Source: Clostridia bacterium (lineage in GTDB: Bacteria > Bacillota > Clostridia > UBA1381). Taken from it: a DNA stretch of 32,142 bases. Both the position numbers and the translations under genes were made by a program. The stretch covers positions 1-32,142 of the forward strand of contig JAFSXU010000036.1 in the NCBI GenBank assembly GCA_017443895.1, in the 5' to 3' direction. Below, one piece after another: positions 29,872 to 32,142 of the stretch (the first letter of the stretch is position 1; each line of letters begins with the position of its first letter). Below the pieces are notes generated by a model. That model was not told the DNA's origin and searched no databases. It saw only the letters and a list, made by a program, of their open reading frames with translations.

Positions 29872-29973
29872 GAAATGTAAGGATAATGAATTGCCTTACG
29901 GCATGAATTAAAAATATAAAATTTTTATCAATTGCGCCATACGGTGCATAAAAAGCAGGAGGGAGAGAGGTAT

Positions 29974-31734
29974 ATGAGAAAAACAAAGATTGTGTGTACA
30001 ATGGGTCCTGCAACGGAGGACGAACAGGTTTTACGCGAGCTTATGAAAGCAGGTATGGATGTTGCGCGGATTAACTTTTCACACGGCACTCATGAAGAGG
30101 CAAAAATAAAGATGGACAAAATTAAAAAGCTCCGTGAAGAGCTTGATTTGCCTGTTGCGATTTTGCTTGATACAAAGGGTCCCGAAATCCGAATTAAAAA
30201 ATTCAGGGACGGAAAGGTTACCTTAAAAGAGGGGCAGACCTTTACGCTTTGCACCGATGATGTCGAGGGCGATGAAACGAAGGTATCCATTACATATCCC
30301 GACCTCCCCAAGGACATTCATGCAGGGGCAAAGATTTTGATTGATGACGGACTTATCGAGCTTGAGGTTATAAATATCAAGGCTAACAAGATTATTTGCG
30401 AGGTTAAAAACGGCGGTACAATCTCAAACCAGAAGGGTGTTAATGTGCCGAATGTTTCTCTTTCAATGCCGTATATGAGTGAAAAGGATAAATCAGATAT
30501 TCTATTCGGTATTGAGCAGGATGTTGACTTTATAGCCGCATCATTTGTAAGAACAGCCGAGGATGTTCTGGAGATAAAACAGCTTTTGGAAAAGCACGGC
30601 GGCAACGGTATTTCAATCATTGCAAAGATTGAGAACAAAGAGGGTGTTGACAATATCGATTCCATTATCCATTCGTGTTCGGGTATCATGGTTGCCCGTG
30701 GCGATATGGGTGTCGAGATTGATATGCAGGATTTGCCCGTTATTCAGAAAAAGCTTATTAAAAAGACCTACCGTGCAGGCAAGGTTGTAATAACCGCAAC
30801 GCAAATGCTTGATTCCATGACCGTAAACCCAAGACCTACCCGTGCCGAGGTAACCGATGTTGCAAACGCAATTTATGACGGAACATCTGCGATTATGCTC
30901 TCAGGTGAGACGGCTGTCGGAAAATACCCGGTTGAAACGGTTCGCACCATGGCAACCATTGCCGAGCGTACCGAAATGGATATAGACTACATAAAGCGCT
31001 TGGAGAATATGGATTTTGATTCGCGTATGGATGTTACAAACGCCATTTCCCATGCGACCTGTACAACTGCACATGATTTGGGCGCGGCGGCGGTTATTGC
31101 GCTTACATACGGCGGCGGAACAGCAAAACAGCTCTCGCGATTCAGACCTCAATGCCCGATTATCGCGCCTACGCTTAACCAAAAGGCACGCCGTCAGCTA
31201 AACCTGTCCTGGGGCGTTGTGCCGATAATGAGCGAGACAAGGGACAATACCGATGAGCTTTTTGACCATGCCGTTGAATGTGCGCAGACAACAGGGCTTG
31301 TTAAAAACGGCGATCTTGTCGTTATTACAGGCGGTGCGCCCATGGGTATAAGCGGTACTACAAACATTATGAAGGTGCATCTTGTCGGAAATATCTTAGT
31401 TAAAGGTAAAGGCTTAACCGAGCTTCATAAGACCGCCAATGTATGCATTGCAAACGATTTAAAGACTTTAAAGGCAAACTTTGCCGACGGCGATATTGTT
31501 GTAACAAAAGAGGTAACCATGGATATGATTCCGTTCCTCAAAAAAGCGTCGGGTATAATCTCTGAGGAAACCGGCGACTCCTCCAATGCCGTTATCTTAG
31601 CCATGGCTTTAGACATTCCCGTTATTACCTATGCCGCCAATGCCACCAAGATTTTAAAGAGCGGTACCACCATTACTCTCGACGGTGGACACGGATTTGT
31701 ATACGCGGGCGCCGAACATATATTGGAACAATAA
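29974..31734 (+). CDS. pyk: Pyruvate kinase with C-terminal PEP-utiliser-like domain
   Basis: The 586-residue enzyme starts MRKTKIVCTMGPAT and has RINFSHG (substrate and K+ site), FVRTAEDV, IAKIENKEGVDNIDSI (catalytic lysine region) and GDMGVEI plus TATQMLDSM. After the usual kinase of about 470 residues comes an extra domain (about 475-586) with SGIISEETGDSSNAVILA and GTTITLDGGHGFVYAGAE, the PEP-utilising-enzyme mobile-domain-like extension seen in Bacillus. It makes ATP and pyruvate from phosphoenolpyruvate. AGGAGGG precedes the ATG at 29974. Codon use looks slightly biased toward high expression. Confidence 0.97.
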   Translation: MRKTKIVCTMGPATEDEQVLRELMKAGMDVARINFSHGTHEEAKIKMDKIKKLREELDLPVAILLDTKGPEIRIKKFRDGKVTLKEGQTFTLCTDDVEGDETKVSITYPDLPKDIHAGAKILIDDGLIELEVINIKANKIICEVKNGGTISNQKGVNVPNVSLSMPYMSEKDKSDILFGIEQDVDFIAASFVRTAEDVLEIKQLLEKHGGNGISIIAKIENKEGVDNIDSIIHSCSGIMVARGDMGVEIDMQDLPVIQKKLIKKTYRAGKVVITATQMLDSMTVNPRPTRAEVTDVANAIYDGTSAIMLSGETAVGKYPVETVRTMATIAERTEMDIDYIKRLENMDFDSRMDVTNAISHATCTTAHDLGAAAVIALTYGGGTAKQLSRFRPQCPIIAPTLNQKARRQLNLSWGVVPIMSETRDNTDELFDHAVECAQTTGLVKNGDLVVITGGAPMGISGTTNIMKVHLVGNILVKGKGLTELHKTANVCIANDLKTLKANFADGDIVVTKEVTMDMIPFLKKASGIISEETGDSSNAVILAMALDIPVITYAANATKILKSGTTITLDGGHGFVYAGAEHILEQ

Positions 31735-31749
31735 CCGCCTCTTTTGGGA

Positions 31750-31998
31750 CAATGACTGTCTCTTTTGGCGCAGATCGCTAAAGCTACAAACGAAACCCAC
31801 CCTCGATGTATACACATACTATCGAGGGTGGGTTTCATTCGTTCTGCATCCAAAATAGACAGTCATTGGCGTTTGTGGGGATTGTGGCGCAGACCGCTAA
31901 AGCTACAAACAAAGCGCACCATCGGTGTATCTGTATACTACCGATGGCGCGCTTTATTCGTTCTGCATCCAAAATAAACAGTCATTGGCGTTTGTGGA
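31750..31998. repeat. Two tandem 113-bp units with covarying hairpins
   Basis: Unit 1 (about 31767-31880) and unit 2 (31886-31998) share flanks GGCGCAGA-CGCTAAAGCTAC and TTCGTTCTGCATCCAAAATA. The hairpin of unit 1 is at 31792-31836 and that of unit 2 at 31911-31955. Each has a 16-bp stem, then GTAT-nnnn-ATAC and a single bulged T. The stems differ at five base pairs, all compensatory, plus one A-C mismatch. Unit 1 also has an outer 11-bp stem CAATGACTGTC/GACAGTCATTG (31750-31760/31858-31868). Unit 1 could act as the pyk terminator; there is no credible ORF. Confidence 0.85.
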
Positions 31999-32001
31999 GT
32001 T

Positions 32002-32142
32002 TAAATTTTGGTTTAGCGTACCAATGCGAAATCGTAAATTGGTATGGTCGTAGGGACAGGTCTCTGTGCCTGTCCGCATCCCCGACAACGCATATTGGGA
32101 ACGGGAGGGCATGGAAACCCTCCCCTACAAATTTCGATACCC
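32002..32142. repeat. Modular palindromic intergenic repeat, copy B (cut by window edge)
   Basis: It begins with TAAATTTTGGTTTAGCG and then repeats copy A from base 1 onward with few changes, in the same orientation. Both hairpins (GGACAGG/CCTGTCC and GGGAGGG/CCCTCCC) are intact. Confidence 0.9.

Follow-up and report, generated by a model that had tools for sequence, protein, structure and literature searches.

REP palindromes and the REPINs built from them carry a variable spacer hairpin between conserved ends, in which compensatory changes are common (PMC3116915), and a GTAG tetranucleotide lies on the 5′ side of REP palindromes (PMC8266576). The repeat that we describe here, present in two adjacent copies behind a clostridial pyk gene, likewise appears to be a mobile palindrome of the short extragenic kind, its conserved ends enclosing a variable hairpin that changes in a compensatory way; a GTAG-like tetranucleotide 5′ of the hairpin, here on the bottom strand, may be the counterpart of the REP one. 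It differs from the REPIN/REP-RAYT systems in that no Y1 transposase was found in the genomes where it is most amplified and no copy lies near the Y1 genes of its own genome, in that it adopts a three-way junction with a nested hairpin (P2) and lies with a strong sense bias behind stop codons, and in that, in this analysis, it turned up in one order, plus a weak relative on a named Clostridia contig.

The SPRITE, BOX and RUP repeats of Streptococcus pneumoniae are interspersed folded repeats that insert into each other and are enriched between convergent genes, SPRITE being terminator-like (PMC3049150; PMC10969869). Our element is also an interspersed folded repeat of a Firmicute, but its sequence and fold are different, its stems covary between copies and its orientation relative to the host gene is strongly biased. 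The ERIC and Correia (CREE, NEMIS) MITEs, which the element resembles, are transcribed intergenic palindromes of about 100-150 bp. Effects of these elements on transcripts have been mentioned (PMC3049150). In three relatives, the element has MITE-like terminal inverted repeats (GGGGCTGTCGC / GCGACAGCCCC; genomes G026, G081 and G082); unlike ERIC and Correia, it shows no target duplication and is placed beside stop codons.

The attC sites of integrons are comparable to the element as folded sites found directly behind a stop codon, with differing stem sequences, a common shape and a strand asymmetry. Their R boxes (GTTRRRY / RYYYAAC) are absent among the conserved boxes of the element, GTTCTGC does not fit GTTRRRY, and the hosts are here core genes and not cassettes. 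The attC site folds as the bottom strand (PMC8266576). Finally, intrinsic terminators share with the element their position behind the stop codon, and the element stands where relatives have terminators; in many copies its hairpin P3 has a GC-rich stem between A and T tracts. Unlike them, it exceeds 90 nt, forms a three-way junction with conserved boxes, contains almost no G.U pairs and belongs to a patchy repeat family. Altogether, the element acts like repeats of the REPIN/BOX/SPRITE type but is assigned to neither REPINs nor MITEs, because the RAYT test for the former and the target-duplication test for the latter both failed.

Tandem copies behind pyk and the family they belong to

The window, that is the whole stretch of 32,142 nucleotides that was analysed, is contig C10 of a 2.7-Mb genome in 77 contigs (G000; G001 and further G numbers denote relatives, L numbers loci). 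The 3′ end of pyk carries two adjacent 119-nt copies, 31763-31881 and 31882-32000, that are 83% identical (Table 1). A duplication of the stop region lengthens the gap between stop codon and element compared with other loci.

Table 1. Features of the pyk 3′ end and its two element copies (window coordinates)
Feature	Position	Strand	Basis
pyk, host gene; stop codon 31732-31734 before the element	29932..31734	+	ORF; Pfam PK 436 bits, PK_C 138 bits, PEP-utilizers 66 bits
21-nt direct duplication, pyk 3′ end / P1 5′ arm (TTGGAACAATAACCGCCTCTT, TTGGGACAATGACTGTCTCTT)	31723..31764	+	81% identity
Copy 1, outer stem P1, 5′ arm	31750..31768	+	inverted-repeat match; fold
Copy 1, conserved GCAGA of inner P1; partner TCTGC 31843-31847	31770..31774	+	invariant in covariation alignment (helix 1)
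Copy 1, hairpin P2 (GC-TAAA-GC), between C and TAC	31777..31784	+	short P2 paired 34/34
Copy 1, hairpin P3; arms 31786-31807/31821-31842; apex GTAT-ACAC-ATAC 31808-31819, bulged T 31820	31786..31842	+	inverted repeat, fold, covariation
Copy 1, outer stem P1, 3′ arm	31850..31868	+	inverted-repeat match
Copy 2, conserved GCAGA; partner TCTGC 31962-31966	31889..31893	+	family alignment; covariation
Copy 2, hairpin P2 (GC-TAAA-GC)	31896..31903	+	family alignment; P2 pairing count
Copy 2, hairpin P3; arms 31905-31926/31940-31961; apex GTAT-CTGT-ATAC 31927-31938, bulged T 31939	31905..31961	+	inverted repeat; covariation
Copy 2, P1-type 3′ arm	31969..31987	+	own 5′ arm absent; can pair with 31750-31768 (89%)

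With stem pairs numbered from G31792 in copy 1 and A31911 in copy 2, the two P3 hairpins differ by double-sided changes at pairs 1, 4, 6, 11 and 15 (G-C/A-T, A-T/G-C, C-G/G-C, C-G/A-T and A-T/G-C, in this order). Direct reading thus bears out the five compensatory changes claimed in the preliminary description, which had overlooked a one-sided, uncompensated change at pair 8 (A-T to A.C). The GTAT-nnnn-ATAC apex with its bulged T, described there as kept, is indeed seen in both copies, around a 4-nt loop that reads ACAC in copy 1 and CTGT in copy 2. The fold is larger than this inner hairpin: the two P1 arms of copy 1 are 95% complementary, and the element region folds 10 SD below dinucleotide shuffles. 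The adjoining part of the window, 32040-32142, holds a second dispersed palindromic repeat (GTAGGGACAGG...CCTGTCC; GGAGGGCATGGAAACCCTCCC). Stretches like it come after the copies at L010, L011, L016, L023 and L091, often with TAAATTTTGGTTTA just before.

A BLAST search of the element against its own genome gave 26 matches. Using a covariance model, its structure written by hand and its 22 source copies drawn from G000, G001 and G034, we obtained 63 matches including reverse-strand echoes, which correspond by hand count to about 37 distinct elements, a number far beyond chance; about eight loci hold tandem copies. On the sense strand of the host gene, the common fold is a three-way junction composed of an outer stem P1, a hairpin P2 on the 5′ side and the long variable hairpin P3. 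P1 has variable outer arms, then TTTTTG-c-GCAGA paired with TCTGC-at-CAAAAA, and is followed by a short YC joint. P2 ranges from 2 bp (GC/GC, AC/GT, AT/AT or GT/AC) to more than 20 bp (L020, L025 and relatives) and is followed by TAC. In P3, the lower and middle stem differ in almost all copies, below an apex GTAY-NNNN-RTAC that is either followed by a bulged T (type A) or flanked by CGGA/GCCG (type B). The conserved boxes are GCAGAYC, YTAC (YTACRAA) and GTTCTGCAT. In G026, several copies (L206, L208, L211, L213, L217 and L218) have extra small hairpins nested in P3, either on its 3′ side or between the half-sites of its apex; those between the apex halves are stock hairpins such as CAGACCTTCGGTCTG, TTGCCAAAGGCAA and CTTCCGCTATGCGGAAG, among others.

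No Rfam family scored above its gathering threshold at the window element, and at 14 other loci Rfam returned only a lysine riboswitch that lies outside the element; sub-threshold miRNA matches were rejected as generic hairpins. Our search of the open literature found no description of the repeat. It is a new, patchily distributed family of folded repeats at gene 3′ ends. Rfam does not contain it, and it would help 3′-end annotation in related genomes.

Pairing in this family is strictly kept. Among the 22 copies, 91.3% of pair cells hold standard pairs, against 78.3% in shuffled and 38-47% in slid controls; double-change cells number 106 (31 shuffled, 6-29 slid) and 19 of the 37 pairs have changes on both sides, counts that are inflated by the relatedness of the copies, which the slid controls retain. 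The same helices hold in a larger model-fitted alignment, except for the type B apex, which the model misaligned. Moreover, both pairs of the short P2 are Watson-Crick in 34 of 34 copies, in four combinations, whereas 2000 shuffles gave a mean of 9.7 and a maximum of 19. This strict covariation shows that the fold is conserved by selection while the stem sequences drift, in agreement with the selection on the folded form that had been proposed from the pyk copies; the other copies were checked for random, non-compensatory stem changes and did not show them. About 37 copies within one genome, with stems that differ and yet pair, constitute an unusually strong natural experiment on selection in a small folded nucleic acid.

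Gene ends and terminators

In its own genome, the element follows a sense stop codon at 22 of the 24 first copies that could be placed, and at 6/6 in G001, orientation being counted on simple ORF calls. Copies lie 0-20 nt behind the stop, and the distance from the stop to the model start is mostly 2-20 nt (mostly 3-16 nt for the first copies in G000, where tandem second copies lie 110-150 nt from the stop). In the other relatives, copies are mainly in sense or between convergent genes, and some are antisense or unplaced. P1 often takes in the host stop codon, as in TAGGACTG with CAGTCC(TA). The hosts identified by Pfam encode, besides pyk, phosphoglucomutase, PurA, a phosphorylase, MgtE, a BMC protein, a phosphoribosyltransferase and a NUDIX protein. 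Two further hosts, whose 90-residue tails have no Pfam match, we take from their C-terminal sequences to be rpoC and hisS. With the same element behind so many unrelated genes, the narrow suggestion that it regulates pyk finds no support.

We then compared orthologous gene ends. Within the stretch examined, element-free ends in G001-G004 have a separate canonical terminator in 12 of 20 cases, as for rpoC in G002 and G003 (in G004 the rpoC terminator was seen by eye and missed by the script), against 1 of the 26 element-bearing ends of G000 (L082; tandem first copies excluded). The contrast has a Fisher p of 3e-5, for gene sets that overlap without being identical and in a test that ignores relatedness. 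By this comparison, the element would stand in for the terminator in its own lineage.

This role is not general. In many copies the GC stem of P3 has an A tract before it and a U tract after it (UUUU(A)UYYGUU), yet a scan of the window finds no canonical terminator and the U tract is weak in many copies. In addition, L208 in G026 lies inside an apparent operon: its two neighbours, presumably a glycerophosphodiesterase gene and cdaA, are separated in G032 by only a short gap that holds no terminator. This locus, like the separate normal terminators downstream of L148, L164, L165 and L082, weakens the view that the element is a plain terminator in every genome. A 3′-end role is likely where copies are old but unproven where they are recent. 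Behind the stop of an ABC transporter gene at L227 (G032), a terminator contains another kind of nested hairpin (AAAGGGTGTTTA...TAAACAGCCCTTT, together with an inner palindrome), which suggests that insertion of hairpins into terminators is more widespread in this family.

We consider it reasonably probable that the element is of the general REPIN/MITE/BOX type, a small palindromic repeat that is mobile but non-autonomous, has a selected three-way-junction fold and took over gene 3′ ends. After insertion, the folded element would do the 3′-end job of the gene, as a terminator or as an mRNA 3′-end structure, perhaps in both directions given the A/T tracts that flank P3 on both sides. It would be spread by an enzyme other than a Y1 transposase, and this enzyme might recognise the folded strand through the junction boxes (GCAGAYC, YTAC and GTTCTGCAT) and the P3 apex. 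Later reshuffling of apices and stems could come from recombination between copies and from tandem duplication. If this is right, a mobile repeat has become the standard 3′ end for tens of genes of a Clostridia-like lineage, which would make a clear case of selfish DNA capturing transcript ends. A stronger version is tentative, and we rather doubt it: the element would represent a new class of mobile elements, one that is moved in the form of a folded three-way junction by an enzyme other than the known Y1/RAYT transposases, targets DNA just behind stop codons in one orientation and replaces host terminators with a strictly Watson-Crick fold, a selfish repeat thus having taken over housekeeping 3′ ends, apparently including that of rpoC.

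Strand and molecule of the fold

The reading that competes best with a mobile repeat working at gene 3′ ends holds that the functional form is a folded single DNA strand, a strand-specific hairpin substrate for a recombinase or an HUH-type enzyme as in REP or attC, and that the position behind genes is simply where insertions are targeted or tolerated. Indeed, G.U pairs are nearly absent from the sense strand, with 17 cells against 124 A.C when the first 16 pairs of P3 are counted over 89 copies; in the variable stem they make up about 1% of cells. In 102 terminator-like hairpins from these loci, 119 of 1230 pairs are G.U (9.7%), a rough comparison since they were picked by folding and include false positives. 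The bottom strand also folds better in 81 of 85 elements, and the YTAC conserved on the sense strand corresponds on the bottom strand to a GTAR (GTAG/GTAA) before P2, in the manner of the GTAG before REP palindromes (PMC8266576).

However, the asymmetry stems from a few positions: three conserved ones at the base of P3 account for about 90 A.C cells (G.T on the bottom strand) and 0 G.U, and elsewhere it is small. Counted as genus-by-position events, it falls to 26 against 14 (p 0.08). While better bottom-strand folding had led us to consider a firm bottom-strand claim, this event count and the small asymmetry away from the P3 base lowered it, and a DNA-level or bottom-strand fold is a hint and not a result. 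Furthermore, Y1 transposases were not found in the most amplified genomes, and a DNA-strand function leaves the substitution for terminators in G000 unexplained. Taken jointly, the two parts of this reading are possible but, in our view, unlikely. Whether the fold is one of RNA or of DNA becomes testable because wobble pairs are nearly absent.

Distribution, turnover and mobility

Within the family of genomes, copy number goes from 0, in several genomes that are 97-99% complete, to about 35; 32 of 70 genomes have a match at E≤0.01, and the distribution is still patchy in the wider order. Occupied in both G000 and G001 are the sites behind rpoC, pgm, an ABC transporter gene, a sulfatase-like gene and one more locus, while the glgP, hisS, hpt, BMC and nudix ends are empty in G001, as are the L208 and L159 sites in G032. 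The patchy distribution and the empty sites indicate that the element is or was mobile. In G026, G081 and G082, near-alike copies that end in GGGGCTGTCGC/GCGACAGCCCC occur at unrelated loci; these ends are 11-bp terminal inverted repeats, diverged in G000. The GGGGCTGTCGC stem is also present as short plain hairpins, so that the outer arms may derive from terminators rather than from transposon ends. Away from known elements, GGGGCTGTCGC sites in two genomes are plain hairpins or longer elements.

As to the mover, the link to IS200/REP-type transposases raised in the preliminary description did not hold. Y1_Tnp (PF01797) has no match in G026, G082, G081, G032 and G077 (assemblies 84-93% complete) and is present in many zero-copy genomes, and the four Y1 loci of G000 have no element closer than about 1.5 kb. 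A Y1/RAYT transposase is therefore excluded as the general mover, and no other mover was found.

These distributions bear on whether the elements move at all. They could be purely host-encoded structured 3′-UTR RNAs or complex terminators, inherited vertically and duplicated locally, as would fit their sense orientation directly behind the stop codons of core genes, the rpoC and pgm copies common to G000 and G001, the A and U tracts around the P3 stem of many copies and the substitution for terminators. Such an origin is improbable in view of the patchy copy numbers among relatives, the empty orthologous sites, the near-alike copies at unrelated loci in three genomes and the insertion inside a likely operon at L208.

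Comparison of orthologous copies in G000 and G001 also informs on how the stems change. Some differ by single compensated pairs; in rpoC copy 2, pgm and the sulfatase-like locus, neighbouring P3 pairs are replaced as a block between conserved flanks, and three loci of G001 have a common apex CGATGTACCTTTGTACTATCG on different lower stems. These patterns point to recombination or conversion between copies, besides point changes. Block differences are also what one would expect if replication template switching copied one arm onto the other (quasipalindrome correction) and kept the stems perfect without selection, and the rarity of intermediates, G.U as well as A.C, in the variable region of P3 goes in the same direction. 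Nonetheless, we regard this mechanism, which had been offered as an alternative to selection, as very improbable, and as sole cause it is rejected by the P2 result: hairpins of 2 bp with loops of 2-5 nt that covary perfectly in four pair combinations are too short for it, and conservation extends to unpaired junction letters and to the apex. P2 covariation is hard to obtain from arm copying and implies selection on a folded single strand. Finally, it is hardly credible that the element is a common DNA-transposon MITE in decay, with terminal inverted repeats that fold by chance. Although the 11-bp ends of the relatives resemble IS ends, their stem also occurs as plain hairpins, inspection of 33 copies by eye showed no consistent direct repeat at their ends, and compensation on both arms is not expected from decay.

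Viral contigs gave isolated pattern matches, and those searched with the covariance model gave none at E≤1. A pattern scan of genome contigs, whose second gap was set too long and which is no measure of absence elsewhere, returned one likely relative, L123, in Clostridia bacterium RGIG8724 (JAGASD010000033.1). At about 2480-2800 on the minus strand of this contig, divergent tandem relatives (GCAGTATCTTCATACAGCGTCGCATTCTAAATC-GCGTTCTGCATCAAAATC) lie behind a stop codon, with a weak model match (E 0.05).
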